Assembly (NCBI GenBank): GCA_016176745.1
Contig: JACOWO010000126.1
Location: forward strand, 1-14,383
DNA: 14,383 bases
DNA from: Nitrosopumilales archaeon
GTDB lineage: Archaea; Thermoproteota; Nitrososphaeria; Nitrososphaerales; Nitrosopumilaceae
Direction: 5' to 3'
Shown here: positions 1,563-10,603 of the stretch, piece after piece
How positions within the stretch are numbered: the stretch's first letter is position 1
How the letters are laid out: each line of letters begins with the position of its first letter
Position numbers and translations under genes: made by a program
Notes under the pieces: model-generated
What the model was told of the DNA's origin: nothing
Database searches by the model: none
Seen by the model: only the letters and a program-made list of their open reading frames with translations

Positions 1563-1613
1563 AGCAATTTTTCTCATTAGTTGTGGGGTCGTAGCCTAGC
1601 CTGGTAGGGCGAC

Positions 1614-1639
1614 AGTGTCTACGATTAGATCACCGCTAA
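1614..1639 (+). other. tRNA-Trp intron 1, non-canonical position 28/29
   Basis: 26 nt. The junctions form a relaxed bulge-helix-bulge: 3-nt bulge ACA (1612-1614, cut after C1613), a 4-bp helix GGCG (1608-1611) with CGCT (1634-1637, one G-U pair), and 3-nt bulge AAG (1638-1640, cut after A1639). The intron's own stem begins directly with GTG (1615-1617) and CAC (1631-1633) and continues TCTA/TAGA. The exon-side outer helix is absent, so this is the one-sided motif known for non-canonical archaeal introns. Confidence 0.85.
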
Positions 1640-1648
1640 GGGCTCCAG

Positions 1649-1700
1649 AGGTTAAACTAAGCTACTGATTACAAGATGATGTAAGTTTGGAGCTGTAGTG
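1649..1700 (+). other. tRNA-Trp intron 2, canonical position 37/38
   Basis: 52 nt. After intron 1 is removed, the exon helix ACGGG/CCCGT abuts the splice motif. The bulges are AGA (1647-1649, cut after G1648) and TGA (1699-1701, cut after G1700). The central helix is CTCC (1643-1646) with GTAG (1695-1698), with one C-U mismatch, and the intron helix is GGTT with AGCT. The intron also holds CTGA (1665-1668), a box-C-like ATGATGT (1676-1682) and GTTTGGAGCT (1685-1694), which is complementary to the spliced anticodon loop. Confidence 0.85.
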
Positions 1701-1747
1701 ACCCGTAGGTCGCCGGTTCAACTCCGGTCGGCCCCACGTATTTTAGG

Positions 1748-4012
1748 TTATTTTACTCGTGTGCGTAAAACGTTGAGTGCAGCTCCTGCACGGAACCACT
1801 CTATCTGAGATTTGTTGTATGAATGGTTTAGCAAGATCTCCTCTTTGTCATCTTCATGATTTATGATACATTTTACTGGTTTTTCTTGCTCAAGGTTTGC
1901 AAGACTGACAATACTAATTGTGTCAGATTCTTTTATCTTGTCATAGTCTGACTGGTTTGCAAATGTAAGGGCAAGTATTCCCTGTTTTTTTAGGTTGGTT
2001 TCATGTATTCTTGCAAAGCTTTTAGCAATTACAGCTGCGCACCCAAGATACCGTGGAGTCATTGCAGCATGTTCACGGCTACTTCCTTCACCATAGTTAT
2101 CGCCACCAATTATTACCCATCTTATTTCGTTTTGTTTGTACTGTCTTGCAATTTGCGGAAGGGGTTCTATCTTGTTGTTTAGTATGTTTTTTCCTTTTCC
2201 TACCTCATCGTTGAATGCGTTTACAGCGCCTAAAAGCAGGTTGTCACTTATCTTATCAAGATGTCCCCTGTAGGCCAGCCATGCACCTGCAGGAGAGATG
2301 TGATCGGTTGTACATTTTCCCTTTGTTTTTACCATGAGGACAAGTTTTTCAAAGTCTTTTCCATCCCATCGTGAAAATGGTTCTAGTTTTTGTAGTCTGT
2401 TGCTGTCCTTGTCAATAATTACCTGAACGCTTTCTGGATTTTGTGACGGTAGGACATAGCCATCCCTTGCATTGTTAAACCCCTTGCTTGGAACATCAGG
2501 AGCTATTTCTGGCGGTTCCAGTTTGAATTTACCACTTGGAGTCTCTAGCGAGTCTTTAAGTGGATTAAATGAAAGACTGCCACCAAGTGCAAGTGCAATC
2601 ACTAGCTCAGGACTTCCAATAAAGTTCATTGTCTCTCTTTTCCCATCGTTTCGTCCTGGAAAGTTTCGATTAAATGATGTGACTATGGTATTTGGTTCTC
2701 CTTTTTTTAGCTCAGGCCTGCTCCACTGCCCAATGCATGGACCACAAGCATTTGCAAGAACTGTAGCACCAATTGCCTTTAGTGAATCCATCTGTCCGTC
2801 TCGCTCTATTGTTGCACGGATTTGTTCTGAACCTGGTGTGACAAGTAGTGGTACTTTGGATTTTATTCCCTTTGCTTTTGCTTGTGCTGCTACACTTGCT
2901 GCACGAGACATGTCTTCGTATGAAGAGTTTGTGCAGCTTCCAATGAGTGCAACTGATATTTTATCAAGATACGAGTTTTTCCTTACATCATCAGCCAGAT
3001 GCGATATTGGCCTTGCAAGATCAGGCGTGTGTGGCCCTACTATGTGTGGCTCTAGCGTTGAAAGGTCAATTCTGATTATTTTATCAAAATATTTTTCCGG
3101 GTTTTGTTCTATCTCAGGATCTGGCACAAGAAGTTCCTTGTGTGTGTTTGCAAGTTCGGCAATTTTTTCACGGTTTGTAGTTTTAAGATATTTTTCCATT
3201 CTTTCATCATATGGAAAAATTGAACATGTTGCACCAATCTCAGCACCCATGTTTGTTATGGTTGCTTTTCCTGTACAGCTAATTGATTTTGCGCCAGGTC
3301 CAAAGTATTCGATTATGGCATTTGTCCCACCAGATACTGTGAGCTTGCCTGCAACGTATAGTATGATGTCTTTTGGTGCTGTCCATCCGTTTAGTTTGCC
3401 AGTAAGATAAACGCCAATTCTTTTTGTATAAAGCAGCTCCCATGGAAGGCCTGCCATTGTCTCTGCCGCATCTATTCCTCCAACACCAATTGCAACCATG
3501 CCAAGACCGCCAGCATTTGGAGTATGAGAGTCAGTTCCGATCATAAGGCCCCCAGGAAATGCATAGTTTTCAAGAACAACTTGATGGATTATTCCTGCGC
3601 CAGGCTTCCAAAAACCAATTCCATACTTGCTACAAGATGACTCTAAGAACCGAAATACCTCGCTGTTTTCACTCAAAGAAATTTTCATGTCAGTTTCTCC
3701 CTCAACTTGTGCCCGGATCAGATGATCACAGTGGACTGTAGCAGGCAGTGTAGCCTGTTTTAGGCCTGCCTGCATGAATTGCAGCAGTACCATTTGGCCA
3801 GTAACATCTTGTAATGCAACTCTGTCAGGTCTTAAAAAGACATAGTCTTTTCCTTCTTGTGGTACCTTGTTTGGCATCTGTTCTAGATGGCCTGCTAGAA
3901 TTTTTTCTGAAAGTGTAAGTGGTCTTCCAACTAGTTTTCTAAATTTGGAAATATTTTCCTCAAGCCTTTTGTATACATTCAAAGCAAGCTCAGGTGTGCT
4001 TTCTATTTCCAT
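1748..4012 (-). CDS. acnA: Aconitate hydratase (aconitase)
   Basis: This enzyme interconverts citrate and isocitrate through cis-aconitate, using a [4Fe-4S] cluster, in the cytoplasmic citric-acid cycle. The 754 residues are close to mitochondrial-type aconitase length. Cluster-ligand cysteines are visible at 360 (IGSCTNSS) and at 423 and 426 (NACGPCIGQW). Active-site features include the HCDH segment at 94-97 and DSHTPNAGG from 161. The C-terminal swivel domain carries GGDNYGEGSSREHAA (636-650), with the substrate-binding Ser-Arg at 645-646. The ATG at 4012 is preceded by an AT-rich TATA-like stretch about 29 bases upstream, so the message may be leaderless. In this lineage aconitase feeds 2-oxoglutarate synthesis from acetyl-CoA fixed by the 3-hydroxypropionate/4-hydroxybutyrate cycle; that role is background knowledge, not read from the sequence. 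The gene is intact, with no missing key residue. Confidence 0.96.
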   Translation of the reverse strand: MEIESTPELALNVYKRLEENISKFRKLVGRPLTLSEKILAGHLEQMPNKVPQEGKDYVFLRPDRVALQDVTGQMVLLQFMQAGLKQATLPATVHCDHLIRAQVEGETDMKISLSENSEVFRFLESSCSKYGIGFWKPGAGIIHQVVLENYAFPGGLMIGTDSHTPNAGGLGMVAIGVGGIDAAETMAGLPWELLYTKRIGVYLTGKLNGWTAPKDIILYVAGKLTVSGGTNAIIEYFGPGAKSISCTGKATITNMGAEIGATCSIFPYDERMEKYLKTTNREKIAELANTHKELLVPDPEIEQNPEKYFDKIIRIDLSTLEPHIVGPHTPDLARPISHLADDVRKNSYLDKISVALIGSCTNSSYEDMSRAASVAAQAKAKGIKSKVPLLVTPGSEQIRATIERDGQMDSLKAIGATVLANACGPCIGQWSRPELKKGEPNTIVTSFNRNFPGRNDGKRETMNFIGSPELVIALALGGSLSFNPLKDSLETPSGKFKLEPPEIAPDVPSKGFNNARDGYVLPSQNPESVQVIIDKDSNRLQKLEPFSRWDGKDFEKLVLMVKTKGKCTTDHISPAGAWLAYRGHLDKISDNLLLGAVNAFNDEVGKGKNILNNKIEPLPQIARQYKQNEIRWVIIGGDNYGEGSSREHAAMTPRYLGCAAVIAKSFARIHETNLKKQGILALTFANQSDYDKIKESDTISIVSLANLEQEKPVKCIINHEDDKEEILLNHSYNKSQIEWFRAGAALNVLRTRVK

Positions 4013-6387: not shown

Positions 6388-8022
6388 CTAGTTGAATATT
6401 AACCCAGACAGTTTTATCTCAAATGCCACAACAGGCATACGCAGCTTAAAGTTCTCAACTATTGCAGGATCAATCTCACCAATTGCACCAACTTTAGAGT
6501 TTTTTGCAATTACATCTGCAGTTTTTCCTTTTGCAAAACAGAAATGAGTCGATGTCTTTGTTTCACACTCTATGTTAAATCCAGTTTTTAGTGTTGACTG
6601 GAGAATTGATTTTATTTCTGAATAATTTGCATCCTTGTGTGCACTGATACAACACAAAGAGAGTTCTTCTTTTATTGTATCATCTGCAGAAAAAACTGTT
6701 CCAATTTCAAATAATTTTTGCGGATATTGTTCATGTACATTTCTTGATAGAGTATCAAGCAAGCTTGGAAGCAGCATATCACGAAGAATTGTATGCTCCT
6801 GACTTTTTGACTCGACAACTTGGATAAAGCCAAACGAGTCCCGATTTGTCATGCCATATTGGATGTTTTTGCTAACAAGGCTAGAGTTTAGCGCTTCAGT
6901 AAATCCAAGGCCTACCATGATTTTGCTTAGCAAGTCAAGCTGCTTTGTTACAATATTTTTTTGCCCAACCGCAGATGATTGTGGAAGAGTAGGTTTTAGA
7001 TTTTCAATTCCATAACCTAGTGCAACTTCTTCTATCAGGTCCATTGGCCCAAGTATGTCAAATCGAAATCTTGGGATTGTGCATGAAATGCTATTTCTTT
7101 TTGGCAATGCATCCAGTCTACATTTTTTTAATGCAGCTAAGATAACAGATGATGACGTCTTTAGGCCAAGAATCTTGTTTGCAAGCTCCACACCAAGACT
7201 CATTTTTTTTGTTTTAAGTGATGGTGTTGTATTATTTGCCCCTGAAATTTGTACTGATGTTAATAAAAATCCCGCATTTTGCAGAGTTGCAGCTACAACT
7301 GATAGTGTATCTTCGGCAGTATTTTTGTCAGTGGCTGTAACTTCAACTAGAATATTTTTTGTTGATGTTGAGACTGTTGTCAGTGCAGAATTAATTATTG
7401 GTGGAAATGATATCGTATTTCCTTTTGCATCTAAAATAATTGGCACGGATTCTGCGTTTTCAAGCAGCTTGCCGTATTGTATGCCAACTTCGGTGTTTTC
7501 CAGTATTTCAGATATGGACTTTTCAGTTTCTGAGCCTAGTGGAATGAATCTGTGCTCCTTAGCGGCAGTTGTGTAACGTATTGGAAACTCGATTTTATCT
7601 AAATCATGAATGCCAATTGAGGATTTTTTCCTGTTCCTTCCAATTCCAAAGTGAAGATCCTCTTGAAGTGTGATTAGCTGTCTTATTGTCTCGTCATCCA
7701 GATTTCCGTTTTTTGCAACAATTGCTGTAACATATGGGCGTATTTTTTTTACAGATTGGTCTGCCTTTAGCTGGTAAGGTCCTCTTTTTACATCCAATTT
7801 AACTACCCCTTTTTTTATTCCCAAAAGGCCCTGAAGGCCTGCTGCGATTCCAAAGTCTGTTGCATAGTCTGGCCTGTTTGGGCTGTACTCTACGCGAATG
7901 TACTGGTTTGTTTGCTCTTCGATATCAAGGCCAAGAAATGGAATGGCAGAAATTATTTTTTCTTTGCTTGTCTTGCCAACCAGTCTTTGCAGTCTATCAA
8001 GGTATAGTGTTACTACTGGCAT
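6388..8022 (-). CDS. pheT: Phenylalanyl-tRNA synthetase beta subunit
   Basis: The beta subunit of the alpha2-beta2 PheRS, which attaches phenylalanine to tRNA-Phe. It carries the editing and tRNA-contacting domains of the archaeal/eukaryotic short form. From this start it has 544 residues. In order they are an N-terminal domain (VEYSPNRPDYATDFGIAAGLQGLLG), the B3/4 editing domain (about 95-265), the B5 domain (about 270-340, with IPRFRFDILGPMDLIEEVALGYGIE) and the catalytic-core-like domain (about 350-544, with LNSSLVS, LRDMLLPSLLDTLSRN, LFEIGTVF and GAIGEIDP). I chose the ATG at 8022 (MPVVTLYLDRLQRLVGK) over the longer 8043 start, which adds seven residues (MAEDCNT), because archaeal PheT usually begins this way. 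It then overlaps the pheS stop by ten bases (ATGCCAGTAG), indicating translational coupling. Confidence 0.94.
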   Translation of the reverse strand: MPVVTLYLDRLQRLVGKTSKEKIISAIPFLGLDIEEQTNQYIRVEYSPNRPDYATDFGIAAGLQGLLGIKKGVVKLDVKRGPYQLKADQSVKKIRPYVTAIVAKNGNLDDETIRQLITLQEDLHFGIGRNRKKSSIGIHDLDKIEFPIRYTTAAKEHRFIPLGSETEKSISEILENTEVGIQYGKLLENAESVPIILDAKGNTISFPPIINSALTTVSTSTKNILVEVTATDKNTAEDTLSVVAATLQNAGFLLTSVQISGANNTTPSLKTKKMSLGVELANKILGLKTSSSVILAALKKCRLDALPKRNSISCTIPRFRFDILGPMDLIEEVALGYGIENLKPTLPQSSAVGQKNIVTKQLDLLSKIMVGLGFTEALNSSLVSKNIQYGMTNRDSFGFIQVVESKSQEHTILRDMLLPSLLDTLSRNVHEQYPQKLFEIGTVFSADDTIKEELSLCCISAHKDANYSEIKSILQSTLKTGFNIECETKTSTHFCFAKGKTADVIAKNSKVGAIGEIDPAIVENFKLRMPVVAFEIKLSGLIFN

Positions 8023-9443
8023 TGTATTGCAGTCCTCAGCCAACCAAGATTATTGTTGTAAAATTCTCTTACATCATCTAATCCATACTTTAGCATCGCA
8101 ATGCGTTCTATTCCCCCGCCCCATGCAAGAACAGGTTTTGTGATACCTAGCGGCTTTGTAACTTCGGGTCTGAAAATTCCCATGCCAAACAGCTCAACCC
8201 ATTTTCCGAGTCTTTCGTTGTAAACCATGCTTTGCAGTGATGGTTCAGTGTATGGAAAAAATGTTGGCCAAAACTTTACCTTTGGAAGACCCATCTTGCG
8301 GTAAAACTCTTGCTGCAGTCCCATAAGATCGCGGAGTGTCACATCTTTTCCAACAACAATTCCTTCAACTTGGTTGAATTCAGCTAGATGTTTGTAGCTT
8401 ACCTTTTCATTTCGAAAAACTCGGCCTAGCGAAAATATCCTTGCCTCGTCAGGTTTTTGGTCTGCAAGATACTTTATTGTAACACATGTTGTGTGGGTTC
8501 GAAGTACCATCTTTTTTGCCTCTTCTATGCTCCAGTTGTATCGCCATCCAAGCTTGTGTGATTTTGATACTTGCTTTATCTGATTTGGGCTAGCAATTTT
8601 GTCTGCAACAGAGTCTTTGATGTAAAATGTGTCCTGCATTTCCCTTGCCGGATGGTCCTGTGGAGTGAATAGTGCATCAAAGTTCCAAAAGCTTGGCTGC
8701 GTAAAGTTTCCAAGCACTTCGGTAAATCCAAGGCTTGCAAAAATTTCACGAATCTCGTTTATCACTTCTTTTAGTGGATGTGCTCTTGCAACAAATGTGG
8801 CAGGAACGGATGCAACAACATCAATTTCTGCAAGATCAGTTTGGCTTGTATCAATGTCTTTTGCCTTTTCAGTTAGTGAGATTGTTTTTGATTTTTTAAC
8901 AATCTCTTCAATGAGGCCAAGTTTTTTGAGACGAAAATAGCCGACAAGTTTTTCGTGCTGACTTTTATCATGGTATAATGCATTTTGATCAAAGTTTCCC
9001 TGGTTTATTTCCTGGAGAACTTTTTCTTCAGCAGATTGTGGTGGGTCTTGAACTTTGAGTGAAATTTTTGTTGTAGAGTCGTCTTTGTCGATTGTAATCC
9101 AGTCGTTTCTTTTTGCATTAGATACAGCTGCATGAAAATCTGATTCTGATAGGGATTGTTTTGCCTCATCAAATGATTTTGGTCCTTCCTTTAACAGGTG
9201 AACTAGTTTTCTTTCAGGCAAACCACTTTTGAGCACTTCAGATCCTGAAGAGCTAAGATTGTGTTTAGTTTCTTGTGACTCGATAACATCAGCAAGTTCT
9301 TTTAGTTTTAGCCATTCAATTCCACGTCGAACCTGATCAGATGAAAGATCCGTTTTTTGTTCTAGTTCTTCGATGTTGAGTTTTTCTGTTTCCTTTAATG
9401 CGTTGATGATTTTTTTTTCAATAGGATGAAGAACTTGGGACAA
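8013..9443 (-). CDS. pheS: Phenylalanyl-tRNA synthetase alpha subunit
   Basis: The catalytic class II subunit of PheRS. N-terminal winged-helix-like regions (about 1-200, e.g. EELEQKTDLSSDQVRRGIEWLK) contact tRNA. The class II core follows: HPLKEVINEIREIFASLGF, the motif 2 region GRVFRNEKVSYKHLAEFNQVEG, FWPTFFPYTEPSLQS in the Phe pocket, and motif 3 AWGGGIERIAMLKYGL near the C-terminus. Length is normal for archaeal PheS. No ATG is available. The TTG at 9443 (leading to SQVLHPIEKKI) is preferred because it lies about 26 bases from the centre of the TATA box at 9466-9473. The TTG at 9452 gives three more residues (479 total) but is only about 18 bases from the box. The gene heads a pheS-pheT operon. 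Confidence 0.93.
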   Translation of the reverse strand: MSQVLHPIEKKIINALKETEKLNIEELEQKTDLSSDQVRRGIEWLKLKELADVIESQETKHNLSSSGSEVLKSGLPERKLVHLLKEGPKSFDEAKQSLSESDFHAAVSNAKRNDWITIDKDDSTTKISLKVQDPPQSAEEKVLQEINQGNFDQNALYHDKSQHEKLVGYFRLKKLGLIEEIVKKSKTISLTEKAKDIDTSQTDLAEIDVVASVPATFVARAHPLKEVINEIREIFASLGFTEVLGNFTQPSFWNFDALFTPQDHPAREMQDTFYIKDSVADKIASPNQIKQVSKSHKLGWRYNWSIEEAKKMVLRTHTTCVTIKYLADQKPDEARIFSLGRVFRNEKVSYKHLAEFNQVEGIVVGKDVTLRDLMGLQQEFYRKMGLPKVKFWPTFFPYTEPSLQSMVYNERLGKWVELFGMGIFRPEVTKPLGITKPVLAWGGGIERIAMLKYGLDDVREFYNNNLGWLRTAIQCQ

Positions 9444-9465
9444 TATTACCAAGTCCTAAAAAGAC

Positions 9466-9494: not shown

Positions 9495-10603
9495 ATGCCG
9501 ACTGATGACTTTATTGTAACACCGTGGCATGTAGAAGGCGAGATAGATTATGACAAGCTGATAAAACAGTTTGGGACTGAAAAAATTTCAAAACAACTTT
9601 TGCAGCGAATTGAAGAGATAACCGGCGAATCACACTTTATGTTACGAAGAGGTATTTTTTTCTCGCATCGAGATCTTGGCAGAATCCTAGATGATTATGA
9701 GAAAGGAAAGAAGTTTTTCCTCTATACCGGACGAGGCCCTTCAGGACATACGCACATTGGCCATCTTGTGCCTTGGGTCTTTGCAAAATGGCTACAGGAA
9801 AAGTTTGACGTTAACATGTATTTTCAGCTAACAGATGATGAAAAGTTCTATGCAAAACAAAACATGACGCTTGAGGAAACAAGGCTTTTTGCAAACGAAA
9901 ATGCACTTGACTTTATTGCGCTTGGCTTCAAGCCAGAGAACACAAAAATAATAATCGATACAAAAAACATCAAGACGCTTTATCCAATTGCAGCACAGGT
10001 TGCAAAAAAGATCAACTTTTCAAATACAAAGGCAGTCTTTGGTTTTACAAACGAGACAAATGCTGGAATGATTTTTTATACAGCACTCCAGTCAGCGCCA
10101 TGCTTTCTTGAAGACAAGCCAGTACTGATACCGCTAGGTGTTGACCAAGACCCGCACTTTAGAATAACACGAGATGTTGCACCAAAAATTGGAAAGATAA
10201 AGCCTGCCTTGATTCACAACATCATGATACCATCACTTGAAGGGCCTGGAGGAAAAATGTCTGCCTCTGAGGAGACGACTACAATTTACACAACAGATTC
10301 TCCAGAGATTGTAAAAAAGAAGGTAAACAAGTATGCATTTTCGGGTGGCCAGCCAGACATTGAAGAACATCGAAAAAAAGGTGGAAATCCAGACATTGAT
10401 GTGTCATACCAGTATCTTAGAATTTTCTTTGAGCCAGATGATTCCAAGCTGAAAAAAATCTATGACGACTACAAGTCAGGCAAGATGCTATCAGGTGAGC
10501 TAAAGGCAATTCTTATTGAAAAGATAAACCAGTTTCTCAAAGTCATCAGGAAAAGCGTGAAAAAGCAAGAGACAAGTTAGACAAATACTTGCTTGAAGAT
10601 TAA
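9495..10603 (+). CDS. trpS: Tryptophanyl-tRNA synthetase (C-terminus frameshifted as read)
   Basis: Class I synthetase charging tRNA-Trp, of the archaeal/eukaryotic type. Visible are an N-terminal extension (VTPWHVEGEIDYDKLIKQFG), the HIGH signature at 87-90 (GPSGHTHIGHLVPW), the Trp-pocket region (FGFTNETNAGMIFYTALQSA), VDQDPHFRITRDVA, and the KMSKS-type loop KMSAS at 254-258. As read, the frame ends at 10580 (361 residues) with an atypical tail after K349. Restoring one base near 10539-10544 gives HQEKREKARDKLDKYLLED and a stop at 10601-10603. That tail is a typical charged helix, and the stop overlaps the next ATG as TAATG. Corrected length is 369 residues; 1109 bases plus one is exactly 370 codons. 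Catalytic residues are unaffected. The leaderless ATG is 26 bases from the TATA centre. Confidence 0.94.

Follow-up and report, generated by a model that had tools for sequence, protein, structure and literature searches.

In the accessible parts of PMC8450103 and PMC3218864, archaeal tRNA genes with several introns, among them genes with HBh' introns from Thaumarchaeota, combine a short canonical and a short non-canonical intron with a relaxed splice motif, in lineages with an α2β2 endonuclease. The former source counts 107 non-canonical introns in Thaumarchaeota genomes and describes an ordered removal of introns lying close together, one of which must go before the motif of the second can form. 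The α2β2 type of endonuclease is reported for Thaumarchaeota in the text seen of PMC4090602 and PMC3218864. Another described system is the intron of tRNA-Trp in Haloferax volcanii and its Pyrococcus counterpart sR50, a box C/D guide; according to the portions available of PMC7994747 and PMC11408192, the Haloferax intron targets position 39 (Um39), with Cm34. PMC7668247, as far as its text was available, predicts box C/D targets at C32, C34 and C39 of tRNA-Trp and reports Cm34 as detected in the tRNA-Trp of Sulfolobus acidocaldarius, H. volcanii and Thermococcus kodakarensis, C39 not being detected experimentally there.

How does the tRNA-Trp gene studied here compare with these systems? It lies in a stretch of 14,383 nucleotides that was analysed as a whole and is called the window below. 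From the archaeal multi-intron tRNAs, as the accessible text describes them, it shows no essential difference: intron number and size, relaxed motif and endonuclease lineage are alike. The parts seen of PMC8450103 and PMC3218864 do not name this tRNA-Trp or the 28/29 site, and a database entry may well exist. With the Haloferax and Pyrococcus guide, in so far as the excerpts of PMC7994747 and PMC11408192 describe it, intron 2 of the window gene shares the tRNA, the intron site, D'/C'-like boxes and a stretch complementary to the anticodon (C34); pairing of a guide upstream of D' with position 39 is present in the window's relatives and lost in its own family. The window gene differs in having a shorter intron 2 (52 nt vs 103 nt in Haloferax, from the accessible text of PMC7714728), in which terminal C and D boxes were not seen, a second intron at 28/29 and C39 instead of U39. 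The targets C39 and C34 considered here are those of PMC7668247, and the part of that paper available to us holds no Nitrososphaeria case. Our search, largely of open literature, found no description of a tRNA-Trp with two introns or of a guide to C39 in Nitrososphaeria.

Our reading is that the window gene is, probably, a Nitrosopumilaceae tRNA-Trp with two introns of the EndA type, and that its intron 2 descended from a box C/D guide intron and lost the C39 guide. By itself the gene is one more interrupted archaeal tRNA. What makes it worth following is the likely guide ancestry of intron 2, its apparent decay in the window's family and the switching of alleles, all of which are read from sequence comparison.

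The tRNA-Trp gene and its two introns

The two-intron precursor of tRNA-Trp(CCA) occupies positions 1585–1736 of the forward strand (+), where the Rfam tRNA model (RF00005) scores 38.6 bits against a gathering threshold of 29; the assignment is also backed by a family-wide match. All parts lie on the same strand and follow from the parse, checked with ARAGORN. Exon 1 (1585–1613) spans tRNA positions 1–28 in 29 nt, owing to one additional D-loop base. It is followed by the 26-nt non-canonical intron 1 at position 28/29 (1614–1639), also visible in the alignment, by exon 2 (1640–1648; positions 29–37, GGGCTCCAG, including the CCA anticodon), by the 52-nt intron 2 at the canonical position 37/38 (1649–1700) and by exon 3 (1701–1736; positions 38–73). 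Since an A stands on either side of the junction, placing intron 2 at 38/39 gives the identical mature sequence. The joined exons are called by ARAGORN as a 74-nt tRNA-Trp(cca) with every stem paired, and taking out intron 1 alone gives a tRNA-Trp(cca) with a 52-nt intron; in this the earlier note, which had described two introns of these lengths, coordinates, strand and positions and the cloverleaf left by their removal, was right. With intron 2 alone taken out, ARAGORN reports a tRNA-Leu. The precursor folds slightly more stably than its shuffles (z −1.87; 9 of 200 shuffles equally stable).

The earlier note had also warned that tools expecting only 37/38 introns could miscall this gene. They can indeed lose or miscall tRNA-Trp in these archaea: ARAGORN called no tRNA over the window, and for the full precursor it gave no gene without intron search and a tRNA-Gln(ttg) with it. 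The Rfam model still detects the gene, and tRNAscan-SE 2.0 is described as designed for such cases, with a Thaumarchaeota intron model and a repeated intron search (PMC8450103, accessible part). As to the surroundings, an aconitate hydratase gene (1748–4012, −) is the immediate neighbour, and a tryptophan--tRNA ligase gene lies about 7.8 kb away beside the genes of phenylalanine--tRNA ligase alpha and beta (the region of these ligases comprises 9495–10580, +; 8013–9452, −; and 6388–8043, −).

The motif of intron 1 and the order of splicing

The splice motif of intron 1 has the form HBh'. Its central helix H would pair G23GCG26 (1608–1611, +) with CGCU inside the intron (1634–1637, +), including one G·U pair, and is joined by a one-sided 3-nt bulge (A27 C28^A) to the inner hairpin h' (1615–1633, +), in which GUG (1615–1617) faces CAC (1631–1633). 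A one-sided motif with a G·U pair had been proposed before, and it can form: in 24 aligned genes the pairs of H and h' are made in 92.9% of cells, against 25.6–78.9% when the partners are slid by 1–3 columns. Two-sided changes occur at three of the seven pairs, namely at all three of h', while three of the four pairs of H are invariant, which makes those three uninformative on covariation. The covariation score is no better than its control, a slide of −3 being equal (0.095 vs 0.096), and pair types are no more numerous than in shuffles (195/500). In a bare-RNA folding model the motif has a probability of 0.80 in the window precursor and a median of just 0.05 over 36 genes. In the mature tRNA, G23GCG26 takes on another role as the 3' strand of the D stem. 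Because H borrows them, the motif and the D arm would be mutually exclusive, and intron 1, if cut through this relaxed motif, would be cuttable only before the final fold of the D arm. We also considered a lock between the introns, in which the 3' end of intron 1 pairs with the 3' end of intron 2 (CGC/GUG); the pairing is near-invariant and so uninformative, with two of its three pairs each disrupted in a single row, and we set it aside.

Does intron 1 have to leave first? The earlier note observed that intron 1 splits the anticodon stem, which is so, and concluded that it must be removed before the exon helix needed by intron 2 exists, which does not follow: pairs 29–31/39–41 adjoin intron 2 with or without intron 1, such that three of the five stem pairs exist while intron 1 is in place and only 27–28/42–43 need its removal. 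A strict order, with intron 1 out before intron 2 can be cut, is rather doubtful. The split stem speaks for it, and the tRNAscan-SE 2.0 authors describe, in the text seen, tRNAs in which removal of one intron precedes formation of the second motif (PMC8450103). The probability of the intron-2 splice fold in the bare-RNA model rises once intron 1 is removed in 33 of 36 genes. Against strictness, besides the three pairs directly flanking intron 2, the fold falls in the other 3 genes, and in the window gene the rise, from 6e-10 with both introns present to 3e-8 (about 47-fold), is less than two orders of magnitude. An order is thus favoured by the model, not implied, with intron 1 probably tending to go first.

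A kink and an antisense strand in intron 2

The earlier note, correct on the two introns, had missed a conserved element inside the second. Intron 2 contains a D'/C'-like kink (1665–1682, +), found by conservation and motif search, which consists of CUGA (1665–1668), a 7-nt loop and AUGAUGU (1676–1682), and which is ordered and spaced like a D'/C' pair. Such pairs are kink elements to which L7Ae binds in known box C/D RNAs. Across 24 aligned genes, neither CTG nor ATGATGT varies and the A of CUGA is kept in at least 90%, whereas the intervening loop differs in both length and sequence. Downstream lies UUUGGAGCU (1686–1694, +), a strand antisense to tRNA positions 30–38, the anticodon loop; over the same 24 genes RNAalifold finds 8 consensus pairs between it and that loop (columns 61–68/121–128). 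The combined pattern CTGA..GATGATGT..GGAGC was matched in 143 of 250 genomes of the class, some of these matches being chance hits outside tRNA, and in 6 of 250 for the reversed control. The kink with its antisense strand appears to be new here. Terminal C and D boxes were not seen when the aligned introns were read by eye.

The antisense strand has a competitor. Right after it comes GUAG (1695–1698, +), the intron side of the central helix expected for splicing of intron 2, whose partners would be C32, U33, C34 and C35; three of these four pairs can form and C34 is mismatched. In the bare-RNA model this fold is very improbable in the window gene, at best 3e-8, which speaks against the reading of intron 2 as spliced through it. 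The antisense duplex and the splice fold draw on the same bases, and the guide fold and the splice fold would thus exclude each other.

A putative guide toward C39 in related families

Is there more of a guide in intron 2 than a kink and an anticodon strand? Box C/D guides place the modified base opposite the fifth position from the box. On this rule the six bases 2–7 upstream of the D' box were scored against the precursor with base 5 facing position 39; in families without CUGA (f10), AUGA was taken as D'. One of 77 rows could not be parsed (L163), and L159 and L169–L172 were not included. Outside Nitrosopumilaceae all six positions are paired in 22 of 43 genes and at least five in 28, leaving 15 with fewer than five. 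Over the 24 distinct guide/target pairs there, the mean is 4.40 of 6, as high as in none of 2000 permutations of partners (mean 3.59, maximum 4.17), and the registers one base off C39 reach 2.73 and 2.58. With f10 left out, 14 distinct pairs remain and their mean is 4.68, a level attained in 2 of 2000 permutations (which average 3.84). Guide and target change together, as in GGGUCA:UGACCC, GGGUAA:UUACCC, AGGUUC:GAACCU and AGGUUU:AAACCU. The target straddles the 3' splice junction of the precursor, and in most of the rows inspected the spliced tRNA gives no higher score than the unspliced form. Relatives with the intact guide are of the f2, f7 and f13 type. Pairing is poor in f22, in genus g47 of f14 and in several genes of f10 and f18.

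In the window's own family the picture is different. Its 33 genes (13 distinct pairs) have a mean of 1.77 of 6, which is chance (permuted 1.79). We also looked in tRNA-Trp for a target of the window's own bases preceding CUGA; the base at the fifth position is A, which does not fit at 39, and none was accepted. The C39 register is thus present in related families, where intron 2 would work like the known tRNA-Trp intron guides of the box C/D type, and lost in the window's family. There, with the register at chance, the guide reading draws on the kink and the antisense strand. We therefore file the window's intron 2 as derived from box C/D guides and not as a full member of the type, as the C39 guide is lost and terminal boxes were not seen. 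The course of events would be that intron 2 descends from a tRNA-Trp intron of the guide type, that it keeps the D'/C' kink and the strand facing the anticodon loop (C34), and that the window's family lost the second guide, which in related families crosses the 3' splice junction toward C39. Any methylation at C34 or C39 is putative.

A family trait in Nitrosopumilaceae

All 152 bases of the gene were matched in 33 of 37 genomes of the family. In the wider set, 194 of 250 match the two-intron gene at E ≤ 1e-6; 23 of these matches are weak (5.1e-8 to 9.6e-7) and all fall in genomes with an intronless allele, leaving 171 (E ≤ 9.5e-9), some of which end at contig ends. Thirty-six of 38 loci could be parsed into exons and introns, with 16–29 nt for intron 1 and 50–61 nt for intron 2. 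Averaged over 30 genes from other Nitrosopumilaceae genera, identity with the window gene is 0.955 for the exons, 0.807 for intron 1 and 0.854 for intron 2, with 0.70 and 0.64 for the flanks (shuffled 0.58–0.61). The start of a two-intron gene was found in 68 stretches, the named ones including Nitrosopumilus, Nitrosarchaeum, Nitrosopelagicus and Marine Group I; two of the 68 are titled as bacteria, probably binning errors. The two-intron tRNA-Trp is a family trait of Nitrosopumilaceae. Position 28/29, called rare in the earlier note, is the usual state of this family, and an intron there was also read in families f2, f3, f6, f14, f16 and f17 of the order. It is absent in the genes examined of f4, f7, f10, f12, f13, f18, f22 and f24, and f7, f13, f4 and f12 have a D-loop intron in its place. 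At the level of the order, model R1 matches something in all 300 genomes, and only strong full-length matches were used. The tRNA-Trp of f8 was not located: among the R1 matches inspected there all were other tRNAs, and motif matches in f8, considered as a tRNA-Trp intron, look like chance.

In the tRNA-Trp of other families, additional introns were seen near 8/9–9/10 (L173 in G054, L146 in G292), in the T loop (L174 in G051, L159 in G353) and in the D loop (G039, G047 and G042; loci L176, L177 and L043), and the gene gives the impression of a hotspot for introns. Several genomes have a contig that starts inside tRNA-Trp (L086, L090, L091, L093, L094, L098, L102), which may reflect an integration site or strain variation; thaumarchaeal elements often integrate into tRNA genes (PMC6563490, accessible text).

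The intronless allele and what the intron may be for

A 74-nt intronless tRNA-Trp occurs in 53 of the 250 family genomes, confined to two genera (38 in g12, 15 in g20), and 26 genomes show neither allele, among them four of over 90% completeness. The intronless gene of G013 and G021 sits at the same locus between the same two neighbours. Its base 39 is A. Compared by eye, none of the 53 genomes has a two-intron match better than 5e-8. How often did the state change? In a tree of the neighbouring aconitase, covering genera g12, g20, g19, g4, g15 and g14 plus the window (68 of 85 rows used, 15 loci having been dropped for a missing aconitase piece; bootstrap not settled, 0.981), 35 rows have introns and 33 do not, and at least six changes of state are needed. 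Five switches are forced by well-supported branches, bootstrap trees give 5–8, and grouping the 28 intronless rows of g12 in one clade is rejected (p 0.0002). Since intronless tRNAs from the two genera agree at up to 97%, allele exchange seems more probable than repeated independent loss. We also asked whether intronless genomes keep the guide as a stand-alone copy: 28 of 31 lack the motif, and the remaining 3 were taken as chance, their one long-gapped match elsewhere recurring in the two-intron genome G178 (compared by eye).

Taken across the class, these observations suggest a wider scenario, which we offer tentatively and rate at somewhat under even. The tRNA-Trp intron would be a one-kink box C/D guide directed, before splicing, at C39 (and C34) of the precursor that carries it, with guide and splice folds exclusive, so that modification is checked before splicing; Nitrosopumilaceae would have lost the C39 guide and kept the kink and anticodon strand; and open-ocean genera would repeatedly swap the gene, by allele exchange, for an intronless one without C39. 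If true, an ancient self-modifying tRNA is seen here coming apart. The two alleles at one locus in close relatives amount to a natural experiment, without genetics, on the use of a guide-type intron, bearing on C34/C39 modification and on UGG decoding.

Could these instead be two plain BHB introns with no guide role, the kink and complementary stretches merely holding a fold that EndA can cut? The missing terminal boxes and the lost C39 register would suit such introns, and so would the intronless allele: with 53 of 250 genomes carrying it, the intron is dispensable there, and Haloferax is viable without the intron of its tRNA-Trp (PMC11408192 and PMC7714728, in the parts seen). Yet CUGA and AUGAUG(U) are conserved at D'/C' spacing though the loop between them varies, and related families show a box-plus-5 register on C39, the counterpart of the Um39 that the Haloferax intron guides according to the accessible text. 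In the bare-RNA model, moreover, the antisense duplex is a rival to the splice fold, not an aid. We consider plain introns unlikely. A decayed gene or pseudogene at this locus, its working counterpart being encoded elsewhere, is very improbable. The earlier note had named a second intact tRNA-Trp gene, with this locus unexpressed, as a refutation; matching of the window's own genome (G000) showed one two-intron locus and no intronless copy. A second gene could be missed in this genome, which is 73.8% complete, and a tRNA family scan of it listed 28 places without the window gene itself, so that such a scan can miss interrupted genes. The exons are at least 92% identical in the 30 genes of other genera, and no genome was seen with both alleles.

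Splicing and modification machinery

The reading of the gene as a tRNA-Trp with a guide-derived intron 2 supposes cutting by EndA. Two EndA paralogues (PF01974), as expected for an α2β2 enzyme, were found in 18 of 21 genomes; one was seen in G012 and none in G044. The window's own genome, G000 (73.8% complete), also shows one EndA gene only, a point against the reading. Fibrillarin is present in all 21. It is in two pieces in G008 (G008:C1:935816-936470) and has an internal stop in G006 (G006:C2:2829-3482), which may be a frameshift, a sequencing error or decay. Some 1.8 kb downstream of its complete tRNA-Trp gene, G049 carries a partial, altered copy spanning intron 2 and exon 3 (L038, G049:C1:1007848-1008097).
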